Below the pieces are notes generated by a model. The model saw only the letters and a list, made by a program, of their open reading frames with translations. It did not search any database and was not told the origin of the DNA. Positions 824-30,640 of a stretch of DNA of 31,406 bases are shown piece after piece. The stretch is from a virus, in the IMG/VR virus record IMGVR_UViG_3300017770_000084, positions 1-31,406 of that record, one strand, 5' to 3'. The first letter of the stretch is position 1, and each line of letters opens with the position of its first letter. Position numbers and translations under genes: made by a program.

Positions 824-1996
824 TTATACTAAGTTCATAGTAATCTTACGATCACTGGTATTTACACTGCCAATTTTAACATTAACAATATCACCTTTTG
901 AAACTTCAGTATTTTTTAACTTAGTTTTATGAATAAGTCCACTGATACCTTTTTCTAATTCCACAAATGCACCATACTTAGTAACCTTAGTAACTTTACC
1001 TTCGGTGATCATCATAGGTTTATACTTTTCATCAGCACCATCCCATAGATCAATTTTAGGACCTTCTTGACTTAGTATAATTTTTCTGTCTGAGATTATC
1101 TCCTTTGTCCAGAAATTAATTTCATCGCCAGGCTTAATACTTCTTTTATCAAATAATTCTAATGTTGCTTCATCCAATTCATTTTTTGGTATAAGACCTG
1201 TTAAAGATTCATTAAATTCTGCAAATACACCAAACTTAGTTGTACCAGTTACTATACCTGTAATATGTTCTTTGATATTTTCTCTAAGATTTTCTACAGC
1301 AGTAGGAATCATTGTTCTTAAGTATTCTCTATGAGATACTACTATAGTTTGTTTTTCGTTAGAATATGTAATAGGCATTACGATTAATTCTTTACCTACA
1401 AGTTTTTCAAAATTATGTAATTTATTTAAACCGCCTAATGAACCTGGCATAAAACATTGTACTCCACCAACTTCAACCCAATATCCTCCATGAATTAATT
1501 CTTTAACTTTACCAGTGAAACCTATTGTCTTATCTCCGATTGCATTGTAAATCTCATTACGTTTTACTTCATTCATTGCATCACTGATTGATGCATAAAG
1601 AGTACCTTGCTTGTAACTTTTAACTTTAATATCAACAGACATCCCAATTTCTAATTGGTCAACAATTTCTTTAGGTTCTTTTTCTAAATTACAAACAGCT
1701 GTATTCTTTCTTGATATATCTACTAATGCTTCTATCTTAACTTCAGTATCTACACCATCAATATTTTGAATCTCTTTTTTGATATATGCAATTTCACCTT
1801 GAGTAATATAGTTAGTACTCTCTTCAGACATTTGTAGTTTTTTAGCTTCATCATCAGCTAAATCATATAAAGCCATTGCATCTGCTGCATACATTTCAGT
1901 ACACATTAATTTAGTTCCTTTAGGTACCTTTACTTTTACTACCTTTGTATCAAATGGATCATCACTTAATTGGATTGTGATTTCTTGTTCTGTCAT
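824..1996 (-). CDS. S1-domain RNA-binding protein (ribosomal protein S1-like)
   Basis: 390 residues. After an N-terminal region unlike S1 (1-110) there is a degenerate S1-type segment (about 115-140) and three recognisable S1 OB-fold domains. These are about 158-224 (FTGKVKELIHGGYWVEVGG... then ...IVVSHREYLR), 242-310 (ITGIVTGTTKFGVFAEF... then ...DRKIILS) and 328-390 (GKVTKVTKYGAFVELEKG... then ...DRKITMNL). The 'G-x-V ... G-V/A-F-V-E ... G-L-I ... D-R-K-I' pattern is diagnostic. Cellular bS1 has six such domains and delivers mRNA to the 30S subunit, so this is a short, phage-type version. It could bind phage mRNA or the host ribosome, or protect RNA. The start at 1996 gives a complete frame behind an A/T-rich leader with AATATATA 29 nt upstream. 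It is followed closely by the amidoligase-like gene. Confidence 0.85.
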   Translation of the reverse strand: MTEQEITIQLSDDPFDTKVVKVKVPKGTKLMCTEMYAADAMALYDLADDEAKKLQMSEESTNYITQGEIAYIKKEIQNIDGVDTEVKIEALVDISRKNTAVCNLEKEPKEIVDQLEIGMSVDIKVKSYKQGTLYASISDAMNEVKRNEIYNAIGDKTIGFTGKVKELIHGGYWVEVGGVQCFMPGSLGGLNKLHNFEKLVGKELIVMPITYSNEKQTIVVSHREYLRTMIPTAVENLRENIKEHITGIVTGTTKFGVFAEFNESLTGLIPKNELDEATLELFDKRSIKPGDEINFWTKEIISDRKIILSQEGPKIDLWDGADEKYKPMMITEGKVTKVTKYGAFVELEKGISGLIHKTKLKNTEVSKGDIVNVKIGSVNTSDRKITMNLV

Positions 1997-10805: not shown

Positions 10806-13800
10806 TTAAGGGGACGCATCTGCTCCTTCAATAAGCTTCCATGTACATCCTAGATCATTACTACAAGGATTGTCATCATTTGAGACTGAATCCGTAGCAA
10901 CCGCTATTATTAAGCGATCGTCAAATCGGTCTAGATTAACACCACTTATTGTAAGAATACTATTCATACATACTTGAGCTCGACCGGTCCCGCTATTAAG
11001 GTTAGAGACAGTCATAGTAAGTGAGTTGGCTACATTAGAAATCAATTCATATTCACCAGTTCCATTCAATGGCTCATTTGAACACTTCCATCTATATAGA
11101 GCAACCACTATTCTTCCAGTTACAGGAACCGAGAATGAGTTAACCGAGCTTTCTGCTGTCCATGTAGCCCTATATGTAAAACTATCTCCGTCAGTATAAC
11201 TATTGTTAAGTATTATACCAGATGTAGCTAACCAAAATAAATCTGCTGAGCCGGAACCTCCTACTATGGTTGCACCAGTACCGGGGGCTAGACCAGTCCA
11301 ATTTGACGAAGCCCACCCAAGACCTTGGTTTGATGTGGCACTAACATCGCCAGTGTTATTTATCAAGAAAGTAGAGTTTAATAAATCACCTCCTATGTAT
11401 CTAGGTAATCCTCCAGCTATAGCCATTGAACCTTCTGCGACAACAATACTAGAATTTCCACCGGCTCCACTAACACCTTGTATACCTTGGGCACCTGTAC
11501 CAAGCAAACCTTGCAAACCTTGGGTACCTTGAGCTCCTGTCGTAGGTGCAGGGTATATACAATATGTATAGGTGTTAATTGAAGGTCCACTAGCAGCTGC
11601 TATAGTATAATTTCCAGTTTGGAATGTAACACCTAAAGCATCATATCCAACATTAGCTGTAATACTGTTTACTGTATATAATGCGTCTATACCATTAAGA
11701 GATACCCTAAGTGAAATAGTATCACCCACACTAAGGGTAACTGGATGGTTAATATCAGTACCTATATAAATTATAGTAACACTACTTGTGGTACCAGAAG
11801 AATTCAATGCAATCTGATCCGCTTGTGGGGAAGACAAAGTATTAGTTACGCCGTCCCAACCAACTGTATTTCCAGGTATACAACCGGAACCTATTCCACC
11901 TCCACCTTTAGGACCGATGGTTCCTTGTACACCTATAACTCCTTGTAAACCAGTAGTTCCTTGTACACCTTGCGGTTGAATACAATAAACAGTATCAGTT
12001 GATGAAGAGAATGTTTGACCAGAACCACCAATATAAGATACGCCCATTACTTGACCGACTACAACATTATTAACCAGATATGTATCAGATTCACCATCAC
12101 TCTGTGATAGCGATATTCTATCTCCCGCAATCGCAGTACCTAATGTACTTGATGATGTGGAGCTTACAAACACTTGAGTAACAGCAGTGGCATTTGAATT
12201 ATTTATAGCAAAGGTTCCAGCATTTGTTGAATTAGTTATAAGTACCTCAGCACCTGGTATTATTTCACAGCCTGTATTTAGCGGTGTTGTTCCTATAGTT
12301 CCTTGTGAACCGGTATTTCCTACAGTTCCTTGTAAGCCTTGGGTTCCTTGAGTACCGGTACCTATGATACCTTGTAAACCTTGAGTTCCTTGCGTACCAT
12401 CAGTTCCTTGTAAACCTTGTAAACCTTGAGTTCCTTGTAAACCTTGGGTTCCTTGAGTTCCATCAATTCCTTGTGTCCCATCAGTTCCTTGTAAACCTTG
12501 CAAACCTTGAGTTCCTTGTAAACCATCAGTTCCTTGTAAACCTTGTAAACCTTGAGTTCCTTGTAAACCTTGAGTTCCTTGGCTACCTAAACCAGAAATA
12601 CCTTGTAAACCTTGGGTACCTTGTGCGCCAGGATCTCCGTTACCAACAAGTTTTGTTAATGTTAAACTAGCATTTGAAATTGTAAAGGTATTAGCAGATG
12701 TGATGGCATTCATTATGATGCCAACAGTATCACCACCATTAAGATCTAAAATATCAACCATTGATATATTAGTACTACCATCTATATTTGTTATTACCTG
12801 AGTTTCTCCTGAAACTCCATAAGGACCTCCATTAAGTAGCACCTCGGTTGCAACATCATCAACAGCACCGGTTAAAAATCCAGTTATTGAAACATTTAAT
12901 GCATATTCGCCAGCTTCAGCGGCATCTATTTGTAATGTCCCAGTCGGGTTTGGGCCACCTCCACCTATATTGAGATATCCCATTTGATTCCTTTCACCTG
13001 AATTAAAAGGTATACCTCGATCAAATCCAGACGCAGCAGTATCAATTCCTATAGAAGAAGAATCATTTGTAGTTAGTATTAACGAACCGTATGCAACGGA
13101 TCCACTTATAGAACCTGATAAACCTTGAGTTCCTTGAGAACCTGAACCTTGTACACCTTGTAAACCTTGTGTTCCTTGAGAACCTGAACCTTGTAAACCT
13201 TGTAAACCTTGTGTTCCTTGTAAACCTTGTGTTCCATCAGTTCCTTGTAAACCTTGAGTTCCTTGTAAACCATCAGTTCCTTGTAAACCTTGTAAACCTT
13301 GAGTACCTTGTAAACCTTGAGTTCCTTGTAAACCATCAATTCCTTGTAAACCTTGTGTTCCTTGTAAACCTTGGGTTCCTTGAGTTCCTTGTACACCTAT
13401 AACTCCTTGTAAACCAGTAGTTCCTTGTACACCTTGCGGTCCTTGCGGTCCTGCAGGCCCTTGGTCACCAGTTACAACAAATGATAATAAAACATCCTCA
13501 TCCATTGTAAACGGTGCAACTTCAGTATATGCAACAGGTACAACTTCTAATTCCCACCATGTACCTCCAGTAGAAGGCCTGTCATATACTTCAGTTATTT
13601 GCCAAAGTATAAATTCATTAGCATCAGATTGAGCTGTAATTCTAACATGACCTTTAATTGGATTTGTAGAAGTTGCTATTGTTTGTAAAAATGTTGATAT
13701 GTTATTCCCGGTAACACCAAAGTCATTAATTGACATTATAGTAGATACATTTTGGTTTACATTATTTACTGCAACATAACTAAATCCTGGATCATCTACA

Positions 13801-14966
13801 ACGGTGGTTATATTAAATTGATAATCAAAAGATGCACCACCAAAACCACCAGCATCACCTTTAGTTCCTTGTATTCCTGTAAAACCTTGTAAACCGGTTC
13901 CACCGATTGTTCCTTGGGACCCTGCACCTTGTGCACCTTGTGATCCGGTAGGACCTACTATTGTTGAAGCTTCACCTTGGACACCTTGTGTACCTTGTAA
14001 TCCAAAGCCATCATTTCCTTGTACTCCTTGGATTCCTTGAGTTCCTAATATACCTTGAGCACCAACAGTTCCTTGTAAACCAAAACCATCATTACCTTGT
14101 AAACCTTGTAGTCCTTGGCTACCGGTTATACCTTGAGCACCAAGTAAACCAGCAGCAGCTGCTGTTACATTTACCCAATTCTGACCATCATATTGTAAAA
14201 ACTCAGATGAACTAGCAGAAGATGCATTAACATTACCTAAGCTATTTATATCAGTATTATTATTATTAAGTGTTGCTAAATCAATTAAAGACGAATCAAA
14301 ATTATAAACAACAGATTGATTAGGTATATTTGTAGCAACAGCTAAAGGTTCACCTAATGTTGTATATGTATTAGATGCGTTAAGTCCTTTGAATGTTAAA
14401 GTAGTACCACTCATTCCACCAAATATATTCTGGACACCTGTGCCTATACCTATATTTAGCCCTTGGTTTATTTCACCACCGGCAGAAGAGTTAATTAATT
14501 TAATTGCATTAACAGTACTGTCATATTGTAATTGAACGCCGTCACCTGCAATTAATCTAAATGTATCATTTGCGATCGAAGAATTTAATTCAAAATCATT
14601 AGCAGAACCTAATGAAGGCGTAACTCCTGTATAATTAACAACTATTTTACCATACCCATTAGCTGAACCTACAGTTACATCACCAGTTCCAATACCACCA
14701 ATAATATCCCATTCATCTGTTACAAATGTACCTTGTGTGGTTCGTGTATTTGCTCTCCACCAAACTAATGTCTCTGATACTACACTAGTGGAGCCACTAG
14801 GTTCTATTACTTCTACAGGGTGATACACAATATGACCAGTGTCGTATGTTCTATTATCTACCCACGGGTTTGCTACTGCCTTAAAATTTTCATCTACCTC
14901 ACCATTAAAAAGTTCCCTTTTAACTTCATTTCTATAGAGGATATATTCTTTTAGATTGAATGCCAT
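10806..14966 (-). CDS. Giant collagen-like tail fibre/adhesin with Gln-rich Gly-X-Y repeats
   Basis: 1386 residues. The N-terminus (1-95) is a small attachment domain ending LVWWRANTRTTQGTF then a W-D, resembling carbohydrate-binding or tail-hook modules. Five Gly-X-Y collagen-like stretches follow at about 273-376, 499-619, 778-892, 998-1029 and 1141-1171. Most triplets are GLQ or GTQ, with Gln in the Y position and very little proline. Between them are beta-rich globular domains: about 620-777 has the spacing of a C1q/TNF-type jelly roll (GEYALNVSITGFL ... LNGGDTVGIIM ... LTLTKLVG), and two related domains start with GC (about 893 and 1030). The C-terminal 215 residues form a beta-rich head with several cysteines, probably the receptor-binding tip. 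Likely a trimeric fibre. The glutamine codon is nearly always CAA, matching the phage tRNA-Gln(UUG). GAATAAATAAAAAAA precedes the gene. Confidence 0.85.
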   Translation of the reverse strand: MAFNLKEYILYRNEVKRELFNGEVDENFKAVANPWVDNRTYDTGHIVYHPVEVIEPSGSTSVVSETLVWWRANTRTTQGTFVTDEWDIIGGIGTGDVTVGSANGYGKIVVNYTGVTPSLGSANDFELNSSIANDTFRLIAGDGVQLQYDSTVNAIKLINSSAGGEINQGLNIGIGTGVQNIFGGMSGTTLTFKGLNASNTYTTLGEPLAVATNIPNQSVVYNFDSSLIDLATLNNNNTDINSLGNVNASSASSSEFLQYDGQNWVNVTAAAAGLLGAQGITGSQGLQGLQGNDGFGLQGTVGAQGILGTQGIQGVQGNDGFGLQGTQGVQGEASTIVGPTGSQGAQGAGSQGTIGGTGLQGFTGIQGTKGDAGGFGGASFDYQFNITTVVDDPGFSYVAVNNVNQNVSTIMSINDFGVTGNNISTFLQTIATSTNPIKGHVRITAQSDANEFILWQITEVYDRPSTGGTWWELEVVPVAYTEVAPFTMDEDVLLSFVVTGDQGPAGPQGPQGVQGTTGLQGVIGVQGTQGTQGLQGTQGLQGIDGLQGTQGLQGTQGLQGLQGTDGLQGTQGLQGTDGTQGLQGTQGLQGLQGSGSQGTQGLQGVQGSGSQGTQGLSGSISGSVAYGSLILTTNDSSSIGIDTAASGFDRGIPFNSGERNQMGYLNIGGGGPNPTGTLQIDAAEAGEYALNVSITGFLTGAVDDVATEVLLNGGPYGVSGETQVITNIDGSTNISMVDILDLNGGDTVGIIMNAITSANTFTISNASLTLTKLVGNGDPGAQGTQGLQGISGLGSQGTQGLQGTQGLQGLQGTDGLQGTQGLQGLQGTDGTQGIDGTQGTQGLQGTQGLQGLQGTDGTQGTQGLQGIIGTGTQGTQGLQGTVGNTGSQGTIGTTPLNTGCEIIPGAEVLITNSTNAGTFAINNSNATAVTQVFVSSTSSSTLGTAIAGDRISLSQSDGESDTYLVNNVVVGQVMGVSYIGGSGQTFSSSTDTVYCIQPQGVQGTTGLQGVIGVQGTIGPKGGGGIGSGCIPGNTVGWDGVTNTLSSPQADQIALNSSGTTSSVTIIYIGTDINHPVTLSVGDTISLRVSLNGIDALYTVNSITANVGYDALGVTFQTGNYTIAAASGPSINTYTYCIYPAPTTGAQGTQGLQGLLGTGAQGIQGVSGAGGNSSIVVAEGSMAIAGGLPRYIGGDLLNSTFLINNTGDVSATSNQGLGWASSNWTGLAPGTGATIVGGSGSADLFWLATSGIILNNSYTDGDSFTYRATWTAESSVNSFSVPVTGRIVVALYRWKCSNEPLNGTGEYELISNVANSLTMTVSNLNSGTGRAQVCMNSILTISGVNLDRFDDRLIIAVATDSVSNDDNPCSNDLGCTWKLIEGADASP
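11920..11976 (-). repeat. 57-bp exact direct repeat, copy 1 (copy 2 at 13384-13440)
   Basis: Positions 11920-11976 and 13384-13440 are identical over 57 bases and stand in the same orientation, in two different collagen-like tracts of the fibre gene. Recombination between them would remove 1464 bp (488 codons, in frame), including the jelly-roll-like domain and one GC-domain. Confidence 0.85.
13384..13440 (-). repeat. 57-bp exact direct repeat, copy 2
   Basis: Second copy of the exact repeat at 11920-11976. It ends 5' to the GPAGPQGPQG stretch on the minus strand. The distance between copies is 1464 bp, a multiple of three. Confidence 0.85.
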
Positions 14967-16687: not shown

Positions 16688-18010
16688 TTAACAATTTCTT
16701 CCATTCTCATATATGTGTTTCACTACTGGGAACCTTAATGAATATCCACCATTTTGGTTTTGGCTTTCTTCAAAATATTGAACAGTTACAGTTTTACCTA
16801 GAAGTTCATTATGATTGTTAAGGTAATGTTCTCTCTGTTCTTTAGAGAACCCAGATCCTACACTTACACGGTTACCTTTATGTTCAATAATAATATTACT
16901 TAAACCTTCTTTTTCAACTTGTTTTCCATTTTCTGTCCATCTCATTGTACCGTTCATGCATTCTAGTATTGTATATTCAGCATCATGGAATTTTTTAACC
17001 TTTAAAAGATTATGGCTTCTTTTACCTTCATAGCCAATATTCTTTCTAACCATGATTCCTTCAAACCCAGCCTCTTCGGCTTCTTTTGCCATTTCAGTAA
17101 ATTGCTCCTCGGTAGTTAATTGTTCTTGTGGTAAGAATTCTAACATAGAAGAGTTAATGTTTTCTGGAAGAATATCATATCCATTCTTAAGTCTCTCGGT
17201 AAGAGGTGTAGTTCCAACCTTATCATCAAATTCGTCTAAGGTTAAAAAATCAAATATAAAGAATTTAGGATTTTCAATTTGATGATCCTTCTTTCTGATT
17301 TGTTTCATAATTCCTTGGAAGTCTTCATTACCATCTTTATCTACCATACAGATTTCTCCATCTAAAATAAAGTCTCCACCTATCTTAGAAATTTCATTTT
17401 CTAAATTACCTAAGGTTGTAAATTCTTTACCGTTTCTTGAAAAGAATGTTACAGTATTCATTTCCTTTCTACAGATACATCTTACACCATCCAATTTTCT
17501 GGATCCGTACCATTCTCCACTTTGAAAATCCACTCTCTTAGGATTATATGCATTTGCTAAAGCGACCTTAAAGGTTGGAATTAAATCTGGGTGGATTGCC
17601 TTATTAATAGAAGTAGTACCACATCCCATATTAAGGTCTCGGTTTAGCATATAGTAAATAATATCTTCCCATTGTTTATTCTCTAGGACGAATCTATTTA
17701 CATTTGCAATTGCAGTATGACCGGTACATACCCTATTTCTTAAATCATCCAACAAGGTAAAGATACTACCGTATGTATTTGGGTGACCTAGTAAATCTGA
17801 ATTCTTTTTGCAATTCTTAGGAGTTACATTATATTTAAAATAAGGATTGTAAGTATAGAAGAAAACTTTTTGGAGAAATTCTCTATCAGAATTTTCGTCA
17901 GAGTTATCGGCATACTTTTTAAGAGTTGCAATTTTGTGATTTCCTGAAGAGGAAGAACGCATTTCATCCAAGAAGGATTGTAGATAAGTAAGGTTTGTGT
18001 ATTCAGTCAT
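16688..18010 (-). CDS. ATP-dependent DNA ligase
   Basis: 440 residues. The adenylation domain shows motif I as SRKLDGVR with Lys172 the AMP-linked lysine, motif Ia/III as FFSRNGKEF (about 189-197), the acidic LDGEI (216-220), motif IV in EGIMVRKNIGYEG and motif V as LLKVKKFHD. A C-terminal OB domain follows (VSVGSGFSKEQREHY, then TVTVQYFEES, then LRFPVVKHI). The N-terminal 160 residues are a helical DNA-binding region with LNMGCGTTSINKA, as in T4 gp30. The enzyme seals nicks in duplex DNA during phage replication and recombination. The next genes toward lower coordinates are the HAD phosphatase and dCMP deaminase. The leader is A/T-rich with a TATTATATTTATAATATAA stretch. Confidence 0.95.
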   Translation of the reverse strand: MTEYTNLTYLQSFLDEMRSSSSGNHKIATLKKYADNSDENSDREFLQKVFFYTYNPYFKYNVTPKNCKKNSDLLGHPNTYGSIFTLLDDLRNRVCTGHTAIANVNRFVLENKQWEDIIYYMLNRDLNMGCGTTSINKAIHPDLIPTFKVALANAYNPKRVDFQSGEWYGSRKLDGVRCICRKEMNTVTFFSRNGKEFTTLGNLENEISKIGGDFILDGEICMVDKDGNEDFQGIMKQIRKKDHQIENPKFFIFDFLTLDEFDDKVGTTPLTERLKNGYDILPENINSSMLEFLPQEQLTTEEQFTEMAKEAEEAGFEGIMVRKNIGYEGKRSHNLLKVKKFHDAEYTILECMNGTMRWTENGKQVEKEGLSNIIIEHKGNRVSVGSGFSKEQREHYLNNHNELLGKTVTVQYFEESQNQNGGYSLRFPVVKHIYENGRNC

Positions 18011-18093: not shown

Positions 18094-18348
18094 TTAACAA
18101 TTTTTTATTTGGTCCTGTATCTTTTTAAGCTTTGCGCATTTTTCAAAATCTTCTTTGTTTTCAAAATGTAGTAAAATTCTATCCAAGCTTTTAATTTTAT
18201 GTTTGGCAGTTTTTTCATCATACTGAAGTACCTGGTCAGGAAACATCATTATGGTATTATAACATAGGTTCATATATTGATCCCAACTAGTATTTTCTAA
18301 TTGGTCTAATAGTGACCTCATAAATTCATCGTTATCAAACTCTTCCAT
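18094..18348 (-). CDS. Small protein with UVR-type helical motif
   Basis: 84 residues, acidic at the N-terminus. The C-terminal helix pair contains ENKEDFEKCAKLKKIQDQIK, matching the UVR motif (E-D-F-E-x-A-A-x-L-R-D-x-I) that mediates UvrB-UvrC or McsA-McsB contacts and occurs in many small Bacteroidetes proteins. No other domain is seen. It overlaps the end of the DnaJ-like gene by 14 nt, suggesting the two are made together and perhaps act on the same target. The motif assignment is fairly good; the function is unknown. Confidence 0.7.
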   Translation of the reverse strand: MEEFDNDEFMRSLLDQLENTSWDQYMNLCYNTIMMFPDQVLQYDEKTAKHKIKSLDRILLHFENKEDFEKCAKLKKIQDQIKNC

Positions 18349-19171
18349 CTAAGTCTTTTACTTTTTTAATTAATTTTTCTTGCTCCTCAGTTAAGGCCTT
18401 AGGCAAATCTACAAATATGTTTATATAAAAATCACCATGCAAGTCAGGATTGTTGTATGAAGGAAACCCTTTTCCTTTTATTCTTAGCATAGTACCATTC
18501 CTTACACACTTAGGAATAGTATAAGTAATCTTTTTGTCAAAAACATCTATTGTTCCTTTACCTCCTAATAGAGCTTCATACATATCAATATGTCTTATTG
18601 TATGTAAACCTTTTTTGTCCAAATAAAAATTAGGGTCATCTTGTATTAGAATGGTTAAAATAAGATCTCCGTTTTGTTCTTCTGTCATCCCACGCTGACC
18701 TAAACCTTTCAGCCTCATTCGCTGTCCATTTTTTACACCAGGTCTAATGTCAACATTAATGGTTCGTGTGCCTAACCTAATTTCCTTAACACAACCATAA
18801 TAAGCATCATATAAGGTAATGTAAATTTTAGAATCTACGTTACCACCTCTTGTACTAAAACCATGATGACCTCTGAATCCACCACCAAACCCTGGATTAT
18901 TATAACCACCTGTCCTTATGAAGTCTTCAAAAAATGAATCGTCAAATGGCCCACTTCCAAATGGATTGCTTGCTCTTTGATCATACTGGGCTTTCTTTTT
19001 AGGATCACTAAGAGTTTCATACGCGTCTGCTATTTCTTTAAATCTCTCTTCATTACCAGATGATTTATCTGGGTGATATTCTTTAGCTAACTTTCTGTAT
19101 GCTTTCTTTACTTCGGCTTCTGTAGCATTTTTGTTTACACCTAGTGATTGATATGGATCTTTCATTTCCAA
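18335..19171 (-). CDS. DnaJ-type co-chaperone (class B, CbpA-like, no zinc finger)
   Basis: 278 residues. The J-domain (about 4-65) has the HPD motif at 33-35, with AYRKLAKEYHPDKSSGNEER just around it. A Gly/Phe linker follows (about 68-106), then two C-terminal substrate-binding beta domains (about 108-265) with the signature LKGLGQRGM and GDLILTILIQDDPNF and, in the second, LRIKGKGFPSY and HGDFYINIFVDLP. The CxxCxGxG zinc repeats of DnaJ class A are absent, so it is CbpA/class B. It should stimulate the host DnaK ATPase and deliver substrates. Phages such as lambda depend on host DnaJ; here the phage brings its own, perhaps for replication or virion assembly. It overlaps genes on both sides (10 and 14 nt). 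Confidence 0.92.
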   Translation of the reverse strand: MEMKDPYQSLGVNKNATEAEVKKAYRKLAKEYHPDKSSGNEERFKEIADAYETLSDPKKKAQYDQRASNPFGSGPFDDSFFEDFIRTGGYNNPGFGGGFRGHHGFSTRGGNVDSKIYITLYDAYYGCVKEIRLGTRTINVDIRPGVKNGQRMRLKGLGQRGMTEEQNGDLILTILIQDDPNFYLDKKGLHTIRHIDMYEALLGGKGTIDVFDKKITYTIPKCVRNGTMLRIKGKGFPSYNNPDLHGDFYINIFVDLPKALTEEQEKLIKKVKDLDGRV

Positions 19172-23732: not shown

Positions 23733-23747
23733 ATAGTATATATTTTG

Positions 23748-23820
23748 TTGTGCCTAAAGGGATCGAACCTCTACTCTTCTGGACCAAAACCAGACGTGTT
23801 GCCAGTTACACCAAGGCACA
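23748..23820 (-). tRNA. trnQ: tRNA-Gln (anticodon UUG)
   Basis: 73 nt, read on the minus strand. The acceptor pairs TGTGCCT with AGGCACA (7/7). The D-stem is GTGT/ACAC, the anticodon stem TCTGG/CCAGA with loop TTTTGGT (anticodon TTG at 34-36), the variable loop has 5 nt, and the T-stem AGAGG/CCTTT has loop TTCGATC. Discriminator A; the 3' CCA is not encoded (CAA follows). It reads CAA (and weakly CAG). It lies between the coiled-coil membrane protein gene (10 nt) and bS21. Confidence 0.96.
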
Positions 23821-24303: not shown

Positions 24304-24732
24304 TTAGAATCGTAATCCGAATCCTAATGTAAGATTAGTTGTTTTTGTTCCAGTATGGTAAACCAATTTTGGATCAACGAACAATGCATCTTTATGAAAA
24401 GTAAACATTTTACCAATACCTAATTCAAGGTTATCAGTTTCAAATTCACTCATTCCTGCATATAGGAAAAAGTCCTGCTCACCAGCAGTAACAAAATATC
24501 TTGCATGTATATCAACAGCAAGGTCTTCAGATGAATCAGCTTGTGCTACTCCAAATCCAACCATAAGTTTATCAGTTACACCGTAACCTAATGTTGGGGA
24601 AATAGCCCAGTCAGTCCATGCTACATTTGCAACGTCACCAGTACCTACATACCAATCACCTTTTGCATTTTGCGCGTTTGCTCCAAAACCTACTAGGATT
24701 GTTAGAGCTAATGTTAAAATAAAATTTTTCAT
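24304..24732 (-). CDS. Small outer-membrane beta-barrel protein with signal peptide
   Basis: 142 residues. The signal peptide (1-20) ends in GFGANAQ, a Bacteroidetes-style site. The mature part has alternating-residue strands (LGYGVTDKLMVGFGVA, FFLYAGMSEF, TTNLTLGFGLRF) and a C-terminal Phe, as in outer-membrane barrels of about 8 strands. It belongs with small OmpW/OmpX-like and Bacteroidetes porin-type barrels. A phage needs no such protein in its virion, so it is probably inserted into the host outer membrane during infection; blocking receptors for other phages is a known role of lambda Lom-like or TraT-like proteins, but it is only a guess here. It is monocistronic: terminator 21 nt downstream and 192 nt of upstream space. 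Confidence 0.78.
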   Translation of the reverse strand: MKNFILTLALTILVGFGANAQNAKGDWYVGTGDVANVAWTDWAISPTLGYGVTDKLMVGFGVAQADSSEDLAVDIHARYFVTAGEQDFFLYAGMSEFETDNLELGIGKMFTFHKDALFVDPKLVYHTGTKTTNLTLGFGLRF

Positions 24733-24924: not shown

Positions 24925-25365
24925 TTATTTTATAGACTTTTCAATAGCCTTTTTAACTGCTGAAGCAAATGATGTTTTATTAAAAGGTAATTCATCGTTT
25001 TGTAAATCTATAAATGTAGCTTCTACTGTAGATTTAGCCTTTCCTTTAACTTCTATTATCTTACCGTCTATATAAACTAGTAAAGTAACTATAGTCTTTT
25101 TGCTGACTTTAGTCCATGGTCCTATTTCTATTCCCGTAGTTGGTGCTTCTATTGAAGTTACTTGTACCTCAACAGGTTTTCCGTTTATGCATAGATCATA
25201 TTTGTCAGAGATAATATCTTCCATCATCTGCTTAATACCAAATGTAATTCTTCTTTGGCTAATCTCTTCCATTTCAACTGTGGTTTTTACAGCTTTAATA
25301 GTATAACACTCTTGTGATAGTGCAAATACAGGTAAGCACATTAATGCTATAATTAAATTCTTCAT
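24925..25365 (-). CDS. Secreted/periplasmic protein of unknown function, last gene of the export operon
   Basis: 146 residues. A signal peptide (about 1-17, MKNLIIALMCLPVFALSQ) precedes a mature alpha/beta domain with many Val/Ile strands (VEVQVTSIEAPTTGIEIG, then TIVTLLVYIDGKIIEV) and a basic C-terminal helix (SFASAVKKAIEKSIK). A Cys follows soon after the cleavage site (QECYT), but the bases around it do not form a lipobox. The size resembles periplasmic accessory proteins (such as CsgE or LpoB types), yet I cannot show homology. It starts 1 nt after the outer-membrane protein gene ends, so the two are probably co-translated. Confidence 0.7.
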   Translation of the reverse strand: MKNLIIALMCLPVFALSQECYTIKAVKTTVEMEEISQRRITFGIKQMMEDIISDKYDLCINGKPVEVQVTSIEAPTTGIEIGPWTKVSKKTIVTLLVYIDGKIIEVKGKAKSTVEATFIDLQNDELPFNKTSFASAVKKAIEKSIK

Positions 25366-25366
25366 A

Positions 25367-26656
25367 TTAAAATCTTATTTTGCCACCAGTTAGTATTTGG
25401 TAGTTTAGGGCATTACCGTTAGAATGCCAAACACCGGTAAAGCTAATATTATATTTAAAGGTTTTTGTTATCTTAATATCCCATGAACTAAATGGAACTA
25501 TTAAAACCCCAGGATCCCACCACTTACCTTCATAGTATTGAGTGAAAGGTGAATAAACACCTAGTATTAATGTTGAGGTAGTAATCCTTGGACTGATTCT
25601 AAAATTTCTATGTGCACCACCAACAGCTGATAAGTTTTGTAAATTTCTTTTTCCTAATTTCCCAAATGTAAAATTAGCACCAGCCATACCTGTAACTTTA
25701 CCCCACTTCCATGATTCCAACGCAGTTGTAGTATTAAAATGATTTTGGTCAAAATCAGTCATTGTTGTATTGGCTCCTACTAGGTTAAATGTTTTGTTAG
25801 GATTAATCCAAGATTTGTAAAAGGTCAAACTAAAATCGTTTGTAACAGATGTGAATGTAAAAAGGGCGCCTTGGATTCTATTCTGTTCTGTGTTAGCTCT
25901 TGTAATAGAACCTACCACCTTTAATTGTTGACCATTAGAATTATCTCTATTATCAATAACTATGATGTCACCTGATGCAATTAGTGAACCTCTATTTTTA
26001 TTATCTGCATCTCCGCCGTCTATTGCATTTGAAATAGAATTAGCTAATGACAAATTTGCACTACCTTCAGTTTCCTCCTCCTCTGTTACTTCTCCACTAT
26101 TACCTTCACCACCATTACTACCTTCACCACCGCTACTTTGATTTGTATTACTTGATGTATTATTTTGAGATTCAGAACTAGAACTGTTATTATTACTATT
26201 TTGATTTTTAGATGAACCTTTCTTGTTTTCTTCTTCTTCACCAGCTGCATTATCTATAGCTTCTGCAACTGGAACCGCTGATGCGGATATTGCTTTAGGT
26301 AACATTTCTCCACCTAAGATTGACATAACATTCGTAACAACCAAGATAGTATTTTGAATAGCAATAGTATTTGAAGTATTCATAATTACTTGTGTTACAC
26401 CTTGACACGGTGATGAACTATTGGCTTGTGTAACTAAATTCATCCATGAGTCAAATGTACCGTTTGTAAAATCATTCTGTGTAAATGTTTGAACATTGCC
26501 AAAATAATTTAAAGCAATAGAATTACTAGATCCCATTTGAATTGTTTGCTGATTTAATGTACAAGGATCTGTAAACGTATAAGACCATTGACTATAACTA
26601 GCTAACGGTATTAAGAATAGTAAAAATGTAATTATTTTATTCTTCAAATATTCCAC
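25367..26656 (-). CDS. Outer-membrane protein with Ser/Asn-rich linker and C-terminal barrel
   Basis: 429 residues. The signal peptide ends about residue 22 (IPLASYSQ). A short N-terminal domain (about 23-110) with paired cysteines (Cys32 and Cys84) follows. Then comes a hydrophobic helix-like stretch (about 95-130) and a long Ser/Asn/Gly/Glu-rich linker (about 137-200, e.g. NQNSNNNSSSSESQNNTSSN). The last 220 residues alternate polar and hydrophobic, with Gly/aromatic strands (SLTFYKSWINPNKTFN, STLILGVYSPF, ISFTGVWHSNG) and end GGKIRF, as in outer-membrane barrels. It overlaps the CsgG-like gene by 20 nt. It may be the anchor for the surface proteins of this operon. The family is unknown to me. 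Confidence 0.72.
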   Translation of the reverse strand: MEYLKNKIITFLLFLIPLASYSQWSYTFTDPCTLNQQTIQMGSSNSIALNYFGNVQTFTQNDFTNGTFDSWMNLVTQANSSSPCQGVTQVIMNTSNTIAIQNTILVVTNVMSILGGEMLPKAISASAVPVAEAIDNAAGEEEENKKGSSKNQNSNNNSSSSESQNNTSSNTNQSSGGEGSNGGEGNSGEVTEEEETEGSANLSLANSISNAIDGGDADNKNRGSLIASGDIIVIDNRDNSNGQQLKVVGSITRANTEQNRIQGALFTFTSVTNDFSLTFYKSWINPNKTFNLVGANTTMTDFDQNHFNTTTALESWKWGKVTGMAGANFTFGKLGKRNLQNLSAVGGAHRNFRISPRITTSTLILGVYSPFTQYYEGKWWDPGVLIVPFSSWDIKITKTFKYNISFTGVWHSNGNALNYQILTGGKIRF

Positions 26657-27341
26657 GCTTAATCATTCTTTTTATAATACGAGCCGATGCGGTCTCTAAA
26701 GCCTTCTTGGTTGAAATACCAATTGTTGATTTATTAAACTTGACTTTATTATCTTCGCCAATTTGAGTTCTTTTAATTGTGACTGCTTCACCACTACCAC
26801 TTCCTGTAAAAATAGTACCAGTCTCGGCATTAACAAATCTTACTTGCATTCCAATAATGGTCTTAAGAACTGTTTTAGTACCATTGATTGTAACCTCTTC
26901 TTCCTCTGATACAGAATAATCATATATTTCTACATATACAAAATATTCTGCCAATACAACATTACCTACCACTTTAATATCATTTGAGGATATACCTTTA
27001 GCAGCTGCTTTATGTTGTTTTACCATTCTTTGTTTTATATCTTCCTTATCTTCTGTAAATATAAATCTATCGGTCCATTCCAAATATGATAAGGTAATAT
27101 TACTTACACCAAGACCTACTCGGTTCTCTCTTAACTCTGGATAAAATTCATATAGTTCTGGAGTAAAGCCAATATTTAAAACTTGGATAGGCAATTGGTA
27201 ATCCAACATATAATCTGATACCTCATCTATATCTGATTTTTGTTCAAAGCCAGCTTTATAGTCTTCGGTTTCAGTTTTTCCTATTTGAGCATTAGCTGTA
27301 AGATTAAATAAAAGTAATGCAATTAAAAATATTCTTACCAT
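26637..27341 (-). CDS. CsgG-like curli-secretion/outer-membrane pore family protein
   Basis: 234 residues. The signal peptide ends about residue 19 (LTANAQ), without the lipobox Cys of E. coli CsgG. The mature part follows the CsgG layout: an N-terminal helix-strand unit (VLNIGFTPELYEFYPELREN, about 54-73), the VGNVVLAEYFVYVEIYDYS strand (125-143; compare 'G-A-D-Y-I-V-x-G-x-V'), QVRFVNAETGTIFTGSGSGE (166-185; compare 'R-x-V-D-x-x-T-G-x-V') and a C-terminal TKKALETASARIIKRMIK helix. CsgG forms a nonameric secretion pore for curli. Phage-borne csgG genes have been described in marine T4-like phages, from memory. The start overlaps the small membrane protein gene by 7 nt. The family call is by pattern; loss of the lipid anchor suggests a changed assembly route. 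Confidence 0.68.
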   Translation of the reverse strand: MVRIFLIALLLFNLTANAQIGKTETEDYKAGFEQKSDIDEVSDYMLDYQLPIQVLNIGFTPELYEFYPELRENRVGLGVSNITLSYLEWTDRFIFTEDKEDIKQRMVKQHKAAAKGISSNDIKVVGNVVLAEYFVYVEIYDYSVSEEEEVTINGTKTVLKTIIGMQVRFVNAETGTIFTGSGSGEAVTIKRTQIGEDNKVKFNKSTIGISTKKALETASARIIKRMIKRGIFEE

Positions 27342-27595
27342 GATATTTCTTCTTCTTTTTTCTTTTCCTTTGGAGGTATGACTATTGTTTTAGTTACTAC
27401 TACTGTATCTTTTGTATTACTTGGTACATTGATTCTTTGCTCCATGACAGGTAAATCTACCTTGTCTTCTTTAGGCTCAAACACAGATTGCATATTGGCT
27501 ATTAATAAACCGAAGGCTGCTGTTATAACTAAACCTATCCCGGTTACTATTTGATTTTTAATTTCTGAAAAGAACCCTCCTTTTTTGTCTTCCAT
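27335..27595 (-). CDS. Small single-pass membrane protein of the export operon
   Basis: 86 residues. It lacks a cleavable signal peptide; one helix (about 16-37, IVTGIGLVITAAFGLLIANM) follows a basic start, and the C-terminal half is Lys/Glu/Pro-rich (KKEKKKEEE-type), probably periplasm-spanning or disordered. A short proline-containing tail next to a CsgG-like gene recalls envelope adaptors (TonB/TolA-type) in size only. It is separated by 1 nt from the cohesin/T9SS gene upstream and overlaps the CsgG-like gene by 7 nt. Function is unknown. Confidence 0.68.
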   Translation of the reverse strand: MEDKKGGFFSEIKNQIVTGIGLVITAAFGLLIANMQSVFEPKEDKVDLPVMEQRINVPSNTKDTVVVTKTIVIPPKEKKKEEEISW

Positions 27596-27596
27596 C

Positions 27597-28334
27597 TTAT
27601 TTCTTTATTATTTTAAAAGTTTTTACAAATACTCCATTTGTTATTTGCAACAAATAAACACCTTGGCTTAAATCAGATAAATCTGTTTGGAATGAAACAT
27701 ACCCACTAAAGAATTTTTTCCTAAAGGTTTTGTATACCACTCCGCTATAACTAATTATTCTTATTTCATAATCACCATTATCAGGCACGGTTAAATCAAA
27801 AGTTAATAATCCTTGTGTTGGGACTGGATATACTACACCATAAATGCCATCTATTGGATTAGTGTCAAATGGTGCCATTCTTTTATTAACATACCCATCA
27901 GTATTTAAAACTTCAATATCCCAGCCTAATTCTGTACCTGCTGTTTTTCTACCAATCGTAATAGGAATAGTATCCCAGTCTTGGTTAGTGACTCTAAATC
28001 TTATTGTAAATAATTCAGTAGTGTTACTTATTGTATAGGTACCAAATGAAGCATCATAACCACCCCACCTAACAGTTTCCCCTTCCCAATCCATTGTATA
28101 GGTTAACCATTCTTGTGCTTTAACAGTAACACTAATTGATACAAATTCTAAATAATCAGAATCATAATTTAGTGCAAATTCCAAACTACCAACATCTTCA
28201 CCTGTAGTTTCAATTTCAATAGGTAAGTTAATGTACTCACTAACAGGCACATCAATCTCAGGTACGTTAAATACGACCTGAGACTGAGCGCTTGTAGCTA
28301 GTAAAAATAGTAATGTTAGTAATATACACCTCAT
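27597..28334 (-). CDS. Secreted cohesin-like protein with T9SS C-terminal sorting domain
   Basis: 245 residues. The signal peptide ends about residue 18 (TSAQSQ). Residues about 20-150 form a cohesin-like jelly-roll: 'V...V.VPI.I....VGSLEFALNYDSDYLEFVSI ... FTIRFRVT'. Residues about 166-245 are the type IX secretion sorting domain (type A): YPVPTQGLLTFDL, EIRIISYSGVVYKTF, then TDLSDLSQGVYLLQI and the final VKTFKIIKK, the usual order of motifs. Host T9SS would export this protein and attach it to A-LPS at the cell surface. This sorting domain is specific to Bacteroidetes, which is strong evidence for host phylum. It is separated by 1 nt from the genes on both sides. Confidence 0.86.
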   Translation of the reverse strand: MRCILLTLLFLLATSAQSQVVFNVPEIDVPVSEYINLPIEIETTGEDVGSLEFALNYDSDYLEFVSISVTVKAQEWLTYTMDWEGETVRWGGYDASFGTYTISNTTELFTIRFRVTNQDWDTIPITIGRKTAGTELGWDIEVLNTDGYVNKRMAPFDTNPIDGIYGVVYPVPTQGLLTFDLTVPDNGDYEIRIISYSGVVYKTFRKKFFSGYVSFQTDLSDLSQGVYLLQITNGVFVKTFKIIKK

Positions 28335-29446: not shown

Positions 29447-30640
29447 TTAGTTTTTATGACCCGCTCTTATTACATAGAAAGTAGTTTGATTTCCATTGCT
29501 CAAATCAAAGAGGGACCATGCTCCATATCCGGAGAGTTGTGATTTGTCATCTATGTCTACTGAAACCGCATCCCAGACATAAGGTTGCTGCCAGTAATTT
29601 GTAGTCCATATTTCCTGTCCTCCACCAGGGTAACTGGAAATGTTGCCTTGTCTCTTCTGGTGCATTAGATAAATGTCAGATGCTGAAAATGAACCTGTGT
29701 TATTTATATCAAGCCTCCAATAATCTTTTGAACTAAATGTATCTGATAATAACCTATCTTGAAACCAGTTAATATCTGAAGTTGTAAGTGTTGCTATTGT
29801 TGGAGAGATATCTATTGTAAAATCGTAATCATTGTAATTTAATGTAGTATTAAATGAATAATACCCATTTGAATCTGTTGTTGTAGTGGCTTGAGTTGTA
29901 TATGAGAATCCAACTTGGTTTTTATTCTGTGTCTTTAGATAAACAGTTTGTCCTGCAATACCTTGTTCTTCTGCACCTTTAATATAACCACTCGCTGTGA
30001 TAGGTACTGCGTTAGGATCTGTAGCAGACCATTCTGCAAATGGATGGCCGGGACTGAGTTGATTAAATTGACCTGTATTGTAGTTAGCAGGTATTTCATA
30101 TTGAAAATTAGCAGCACCTATACCACCAAAATTCTGTATTCTATATTCAAACTCATACCATGTATCTTTATCTAAGGTTGCCGTACCATAAGCCCATACA
30201 TTCCAACCATAATGTTTAGTAACTATATCATTAGTCTTACCAATACCTTTAATCATAAACTCATGTGAGTCATCTGTAAAAGTTCTAAATCTATATGTAC
30301 CTGTTTTATTAGGCTTAAACCAACCGGAATAGATAATTGCATATCTTTGGCTACTCCATCTTGGTGGATTCCATAGTTGATAAGGAGTATGATTACCACC
30401 TCTTGGACCTTGGTAACTTGTTATATCTATAGGTCCTTCCGTATAGAGTGTAGTACCGCCATCGGCAAGATTAACCATAGCGTCAAATTCTGAGTGAGAA
30501 TTAGCATTACCTGTATAATATTGACCTGATTGATTCCCACCGTAATGAGTCTTAAGTGACTTTATGTTTACGGTAGTCTGTGCATTAAGAATAGGCATTC
30601 CTAGAATAAAACATAAAAGGAATAACTTAAAGAATCTCAT
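29447..30640 (-). CDS. Secreted PA14-domain protein with a dockerin-like module
   Basis: 397 residues. The signal peptide ends about residue 20 (PILNAQ). A PA14-type beta-barrel (about 45-190) shows YSGWFKPNKTGTYRFRTFTD, DSHEFMIKG and WYEFEYRIQNFGG, all typical. Next, a CNA-B/carboxypeptidase-regulatory-like beta domain (about 212-280: TASGYIKGAEEQGIAGQTVY, then TTTTDSNGYYSF). Then a dockerin-like module (about 284-335) with LTTSDINWFQDRLLS and DINNTGSFSASDIYLMHQKR, whose D-x-N-x-x-G-x-x-x-x-x-D loop matches type I dockerins. It ends with a strand-rich tail. PA14 binds glycans in many adhesins. It opens the operon behind a promoter-like motif 10 nt upstream. Its dockerin could bind the cohesin-like domains of the next two products. 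Confidence 0.8.
   Translation of the reverse strand: MRFFKLFLLCFILGMPILNAQTTVNIKSLKTHYGGNQSGQYYTGNANSHSEFDAMVNLADGGTTLYTEGPIDITSYQGPRGGNHTPYQLWNPPRWSSQRYAIIYSGWFKPNKTGTYRFRTFTDDSHEFMIKGIGKTNDIVTKHYGWNVWAYGTATLDKDTWYEFEYRIQNFGGIGAANFQYEIPANYNTGQFNQLSPGHPFAEWSATDPNAVPITASGYIKGAEEQGIAGQTVYLKTQNKNQVGFSYTTQATTTTDSNGYYSFNTTLNYNDYDFTIDISPTIATLTTSDINWFQDRLLSDTFSSKDYWRLDINNTGSFSASDIYLMHQKRQGNISSYPGGGQEIWTTNYWQQPYVWDAVSVDIDDKSQLSGYGAWSLFDLSNGNQTTFYVIRAGHKN

Follow-up and report, generated by a model that had tools for sequence, protein, structure and literature searches.

What use could a phage have for a protein that bears the sorting signal of a bacterial secretion system? The question is raised by a 31.4-kb linear IMG/VR virus record (IMGVR_UViG_3300017770_000084, positions 1 to 31,406), the whole of which is referred to here as the window. 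A first-pass annotation made from the letters alone had proposed that the open reading frame (ORF) at 27597-28334 ends in a type A C-terminal domain (CTD) of the type IX secretion system (T9SS), and that the host therefore probably belongs to the Bacteroidetes. The ORF had been placed exactly (minus strand, 245 aa), and the four motifs on which the proposal was built (YPVPTQG, GVV, LSQGVYLLQI and KTFKI) are all found in the C-terminal part of its product. Baseplate/tail, collagen-like fibre and endolysin genes are all present in the window (Table 1). The gene itself, which we call the cohesin-CTD gene, occurs in 16 IMG/VR contigs and in the isolated Flavobacterium phage vB_FspM_immuto (MW353176; genus Immutovirus; 160 kb; host Flavobacterium sp. 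LMO8), where a homologue with 51% identity is annotated as a "cohesin domain-containing protein". Its presence in this closest isolate supports the proposed host phylum.

Table 1. Features of the window; the seven operon genes are listed first, in minus-strand order.
Position	Strand	Product (aa)	Description
29447-30640	minus	397	Secreted; PA14-like head, SdrD_B/CarboxypepD_reg-like Ig domain, dockerin-type loop
28336-29430	minus	364	Secreted; cohesin-like sandwich (inspection), Ig-like domain, degenerate dockerin-like module
27597-28334	minus	245	Cohesin-CTD protein; ATG start; PF00963, PF18962 and TIGR04183 matches; signal peptide ~1-19, cohesin 22-127, linker, T9SS type A sorting domain 168-245
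27335-27595	minus	86	One transmembrane-like segment (inspection)
26637-27341	minus	234	Exported; predicted CsgG fold (AlphaFold2 model, Foldseek, VIA-align)
25367-26656	minus	429	Exported; small N-terminal domain, low-complexity linker, predicted C-terminal ~12-stranded outer-membrane beta-barrel
24925-25365	minus	146	Exported
24304-24732		142	Small protein resembling an outer-membrane barrel; immediately downstream of the operon
23747-23820			tRNA-Gln gene
16688-18010, 18335-19171			ORFs reading like ATP-dependent DNA ligase and DnaJ-type chaperone (inspection)
10806-14966		1386	Probably tail fibre; long collagen-like GXX (GLQGTQG) repeats; between tail genes
824-1996		390	Reads like S1-type RNA-binding repeats; beside baseplate genes; no PHROG match

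The two profile searches that the first-pass annotation had named as checks both bear the sorting domain out. TIGR04183 is matched over its full length (profile 1-72 of 72) by residues 168-245 with an E-value of 1.3e-10 and 41.1 bits, against a curated cut-off of 23 bits, and the match ends at the very C-terminus of the protein (residue 245 of 245). The Pfam model Por_Secre_tail (PF18962) matches residues 168-241 (1.5e-8; 35.2 bits, cut-off 27), and a six-frame search found a single sorting-domain match in the window. The domain also scores above the TIGR04183 cut-off in 11 of the 11 related virus records first searched and in 30 of 32 further ones, with a dN/dS of about 0.18, which argues against a chance resemblance. 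In the 32 further records the match lies inside an open frame of the expected size, and the 43 operon-bearing records searched have exactly one match each. At the level of sequence, we therefore regard it as confirmed that the protein ends in a genuine type A T9SS sorting domain.

The annotation had made no mention of a cohesin domain (PF00963), which occupies residues 22-127 and scores well above its gathering cut-off (2.9e-9; 37.7 bits against 24.1). Ahead of it, the leader MRCILLTLLFLLATSAQSQ reads as a signal peptide by inspection and is hydrophobic in the aligned relatives too. A profile of the family matches solved structures corresponding to both parts, namely the sorting-domain proteins 5jvk_A (1.8e-4) and, weakly, 8glj_D (0.35), and the cohesin 2xdh_A (0.0086). 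Type A cargo is exported by Sec, folds in the periplasm and is directed by the CTD across an outer-membrane translocon, after which PorU removes the CTD and, in Porphyromonas, the cargo attaches to anionic LPS (PMC5445135). Within the cohesin-CTD gene, the cohesin part is the more constrained (dN/dS 0.076), and the looser constraint on the sorting domain is as expected if the CTD serves as a removable tag. The protein resembles usual type A cargo, such as the surface proteins of Flavobacterium and Porphyromonas, in having an N-terminal signal peptide and a C-terminal CTD, but it is phage-encoded, small, has cohesin as its sole other recognised domain and lies near a gene for a CsgG-fold protein.

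The idea that a phage encodes a sorting-domain protein thus stood, but the picture of a protein standing alone did not: the protein belongs to a conserved module of several genes, of which the annotation had said nothing. Neighbouring genes among the seven at the head of Table 1 lie no more than about twenty bases apart or overlap by no more than that, and this nearly contiguous arrangement on one strand suggests that they form a single transcript. Because the cohesin-CTD gene belongs to such a tight phage operon, it is unlikely to be a stray host gene. Their order is maintained in the loci L002-L018, as far as each of them reaches, and their products have signal peptides by inspection, the 86-aa protein having a membrane segment instead. 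All six genes for which it was estimated are under purifying selection, with pairwise dN/dS values of 0.05-0.28 (CsgG-like, 0.05-0.08; cohesin-CTD, 0.09-0.16; barrel, 0.09-0.14; the two large partners, 0.12-0.28). The 142-aa protein just beyond the operon has relatives in near-identical contigs only.

The gene for the CsgG-like protein has relatives in at least 181 viral stretches, from which 80 loci were retained; these counts are of loci rather than independent species, some contigs being near-identical, and many of the loci share contigs with the 16 cohesin-CTD relatives. The CsgG-like and barrel genes are present in all 80 retained loci, the small membrane protein in 75 and the 146-aa gene in 72. 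According to a length-based and thus approximate sorting of the 44 loci with enough flanking sequence, a cohesin-CTD-type gene or a fused form of it is found in 43, and every one of the 44 encodes one or more additional proteins of the secreted-protein cluster. No match to the CsgG-like gene was found in 84,980 bacterial and archaeal species genomes by a pattern-based search, which distant relatives could escape. The fused protein matched only two contigs from bacterial genomes, both from metagenome-assembled genomes (MAGs): a 254-kb "Bacteroidetes" contig (L100), where the operon has tail-collar-like genes nearby, and a 16.5-kb "Sphingomonadaceae" contig (L101), where it lies beside a 1,762-aa ORF matching no known family. 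These are most likely misbinned phage contigs.

Comparison with immuto suggests that the operon has a history of its own. Gene order is the same in the two phages, and the six larger operon proteins of the window match the complete immuto genome at 28-63% identity, as do the endolysin, one small membrane protein and, weakly, a hexapeptide-repeat protein, whereas none of the 13 ORFs of the baseplate/tail region has a match there. Conversely, the phages MaF61, PTm1, MA9V-1, pT24 and PAU, which are linked to the window by a tail protein, lack the sorting domain as well as the CsgG-like gene, and the cassette is therefore no constant feature of that tail lineage. Since the operon is common to phages with unrelated tails and missing from tail relatives, it travels separately from the virion genes, and gene content thus indicates that it moves between phage lineages.

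Neither single-sequence nor profile searches of solved structures identified the CsgG-like protein; only its predicted fold did so. An AlphaFold2 model built from 29 sequences (pLDDT 69.9) has CsgG structures (the best being 4uv2, 6l7a and 4uv3) as its top 19 PDB matches in Foldseek (E 2.5e-7 to 5.2e-5), and VIA-align likewise places CsgG first (6lqh_A; Z 11.1 over 153 residues at 3.5 A), with PelC, LptE and other outer-membrane proteins that share this broad fold coming next (Z about 8-10). The model therefore points to a CsgG-like fold. We do not claim membership of the CsgG family, because PF03783 is not matched by the window protein and its N-terminus, MVRIFLIALLLFNLTANAQ, has no cysteine and hence no lipobox; 4 of the 29 relatives match PF03783 (best 8.5e-5), and an hhalign comparison with Escherichia coli CsgG was uninformative owing to a low-diversity alignment (Neff 1.7). 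The model of the 429-aa protein (pLDDT 56 overall, about 70 in the barrel) matches porin and autotransporter barrels with a probability of 1.00 and a low TM-score, and this level of confidence permits no closer description than "outer-membrane barrel". Pfam found no CsgE, CsgF or curlin repeat in the operon, of which distant versions could escape such a search. The 146-aa protein was considered as a CsgE and the barrel protein as a CsgF, and neither proposal gained support from hhalign comparisons with the E. coli proteins, which gave insignificant results. The 146-aa protein also resembles ribosomal protein S1 weakly over 53 residues, which was put down to chance.

The two large partners encoded upstream of the cohesin-CTD gene have an Ig-like and a dockerin-like part in common and differ in their N-terminal heads. 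In the window, the 397-aa protein has a PA14-like head that is sub-threshold in Pfam (13.7 bits) and one canonical dockerin-type loop, DINNTGSFSASD; the 364-aa protein has no Pfam domain above cut-off, both of its dockerin-like loops are degenerate, and its conserved C-terminus reads GDANGTGLN. Dockerin_1 (PF00404) matches neither of them. Among 64 family members it is matched by 11 at E<=0.01 (best 7.8e-5), below cut-off in those scanned singly, and a pattern search found a canonical DxNxD-type loop in 30 of 30 fused homologues. The heads are variable: Pfam recognised Lectin_C in 15 of the 64, Laminin_G_3 in 4, GEVED in 4 and PA14 in 2, and the C-type lectin, Laminin_G_3 or GEVED heads in related phages score above cut-off. 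The corresponding head in immuto is a C-type lectin as against the PA14-like one of the window. A diversity-generating retroelement was considered as a source of the variable lectins, and none was evident, as reverse transcriptase was missing from all 16 records searched. In 30 of the 80 retained loci the homologue of the 364-aa protein and the cohesin-CTD protein form a single protein of about 635 aa, in the order cohesin-like, Ig-like, dockerin-like module, cohesin and sorting domain, so that the GDANGTG motif at the end of the split protein is found in the interior of the fused one. The lectin gene in these phages usually lies downstream rather than upstream. Fusions of this kind are generally accepted as evidence that the two parts function jointly.

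How, then, might the module act? We favor, with moderate confidence, the interpretation that this mobile cassette alters the surface of Bacteroidetes cells during infection by displaying a lectin scaffold through the host T9SS. Operon products would be taken into the periplasm by Sec, and the host T9SS (PorV/SprA translocon and PorU sortase) would then carry the cohesin-CTD protein over the outer membrane and anchor or release it. There it would act as a scaffold that keeps the dockerin-like lectin and PA14 proteins outside via cohesin-dockerin-like contacts. With a CTD on one partner only, the T9SS alone leaves the arrival of the others at the surface unexplained; they may cross together with the cohesin-CTD protein, or else through an assembly of the CsgG-like ring and the barrel, which would serve as an outer-membrane channel or platform, supplied by the phage, for passing or positioning the partners devoid of a CTD. 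The weakest step concerns purpose: the adhesin, by binding glycans, may trap nearby host cells for the progeny virions or, alternatively, mask or occupy receptors against superinfection. The display interpretation draws support from the single sorting-domain match at the expected place in each operon-bearing record (11/11 and 32/32), from sorting and cohesin domains above their cut-offs, from the swapping of sugar-binding or adhesive heads and from the fusions. It is also supported by the invariant CsgG-like and barrel pair with its predicted folds, by the low dN/dS throughout and by a parallel in a Pelagibacter phage described below. Against it weigh the degenerate dockerin-like modules of the window, below the Dockerin_1 threshold, the departures of the CsgG-like protein from PF03783 and from the lipid-attachment cysteine, and the low confidence of the barrel model.

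Other functions would account for parts of the same data. The CsgG fold and the barrel could mean that the operon mainly makes an outer-membrane pore for lysis or solute uptake, with the secreted proteins as accessories, and there is precedent in the proposals made for CsgGF in Melnitz and the pelagimyophages (PMC9004378, PMC7029224). We consider this unlikely: the annotated holin of immuto is about 30 kb away from the operon, which argues against a dedicated lysis role, the window endolysin gene lies outside the operon, a lysis gene did not turn up in the conserved set, and the secreted proteins look central, being conserved and either fused or swapped. A similarly small chance attaches to the idea that the cohesin-CTD protein blocks the host T9SS or competes for it, with the result that T9SS-exported surface proteins serving as phage receptors are no longer displayed and superinfecting phages are excluded, display being secondary. 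A strong CTD on a small, cheap and conserved protein, present exactly once per phage record, is what such an agent might look like, but the lectin heads and their domain swapping, the CsgG fold and the barrel would be left unexplained.

The presence of a cohesin, dockerin-like modules and lectins also brings to mind a small cellulosome-like device that gathers polysaccharide for the infected cell, an idea to which the glycoside hydrolases among the T9SS cargo of Cryophage lend some weight (PMC7468147). We regard it as quite doubtful, given that no catalytic carbohydrate-active domain was found by Pfam among the 64 family members. The operon resembles cellulosomal and non-cellulosomal cohesin-dockerin systems in its above-threshold cohesin and in the dockerin-like loops of the partners, and departs from them in that its dockerin-like modules are weak, with one canonical calcium loop in the window copy, and that enzymes are missing. 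Cohesin and T9SS domains are ordinary in Bacteroidetes, and on this ground the gene could be a host adhesin gene acquired recently and carried as a passenger with no phage function. This is very improbable and already largely contradicted by the purifying selection and whole-operon conservation, by the CsgG-like gene having at least 181 viral relatives and no bacterial match, and by the CTD gene appearing outside viruses in two viral-looking MAG contigs only.

The cohesin-CTD protein is not the first T9SS cargo to be found in phages. Cryophage encodes three type A cargo proteins, with endoglucanase, GH39 and PA14 genes that each carry a CTD and vary between variants, and a role in superinfection or competition has been proposed for them (PMC7468147); sorting-domain proteins have also been reported in crAss-like cluster 2 contigs (PMC6949934). 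Cryophage thus shares with the window phage-encoded cargo that includes a PA14-domain gene, but it has a CTD on each cargo gene, in contrast to the single conserved cohesin-CTD protein and variable, CTD-less lectins of the window, and the text of the Cryophage paper does not mention cohesin (PMC7468147). The curli (CsgGF) operons of pelagimyophages and Melnitz are comparable: in them too, a CsgG-fold gene that the host lineage lacks is accompanied by genes for small membrane proteins and for partners that are exported (PMC7029224, PMC9004378). In the window, by contrast, CsgF, CsgE and curlin repeats are not recognisable and their place is taken by a barrel, proteins of the cohesin/dockerin-like type and a T9SS tag, and the CsgG-like protein is far diverged and has no lipobox. 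For the phage curli genes, one proposal is the capture of siblings together with uptake (PMC7029224) and another the control of lysis (PMC9004378), and CsgA and CsgB are said to be missing from pelagimyophages (PMC7029224).

In Pelagibacter phage HTVC008M (KC465899), we observed a 441-aa protein downstream of CsgF/CsgG (L099:7585-8910) that combines PA14 (27.7 bits, cut-off 24) with curlin repeats (Curlin_rpt, 33.1 bits, cut-off 20.7). No paper noting a PA14-curlin fusion was found in a literature of which our coverage was partial. HTVC008M and the window phages infect very different hosts, and each pairs a CsgG-fold gene with an exported protein of adhesive type, the adhesive part consisting of curlin repeats in the former and of cohesin/dockerin-like parts with a T9SS tag in the latter. 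The curli operon of HTVC008M may likewise display an adhesin, which offers a testable reading of the so far unexplained curli genes that abundant marine phages carry.

While phage T9SS cargo (PMC7468147; PMC6949934) and phage curli genes have already been reported separately, the union of T9SS cargo, a CsgG-like protein and cohesin/dockerin-like proteins in one conserved operon appears to be new, as does the spread of that operon over many large phages, an isolate included, and its movement between lineages. A search of the literature that combined cohesin, dockerin and phage genomes turned up no relevant paper, and the operon genes of immuto are annotated merely as lectin, cohesin or hypothetical. 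One broader possibility, which we advance tentatively, is that phages exchange a surface display machine in which the T9SS and a phage CsgG-like channel jointly build a cohesin-dockerin-like lectin scaffold, with CsgGF/PA14-curlin fibres of the HTVC008M type as a convergent solution. If so, the adhesive coating of infected cells would be a general phage strategy. Phage changes to the host surface mostly involve glycosyltransferases, lipoproteins or single membrane proteins, and a conserved, mobile, multi-protein display module that borrows the T9SS would be a new route to such change. Because the operon occurs in a cultured phage-host pair, these ideas are open to testing. Finally, a 462-kb uncultured phage (LR756500.1), which has a tail protein 47% identical to that of the window and no CsgG-like gene, encodes at about 36.9-38.0 kb (L111:4881-5990, minus strand) a protein unrelated to the cohesin-CTD protein of the window, 369 aa long and exported, that likewise ends in a T9SS sorting domain (37.1 bits).
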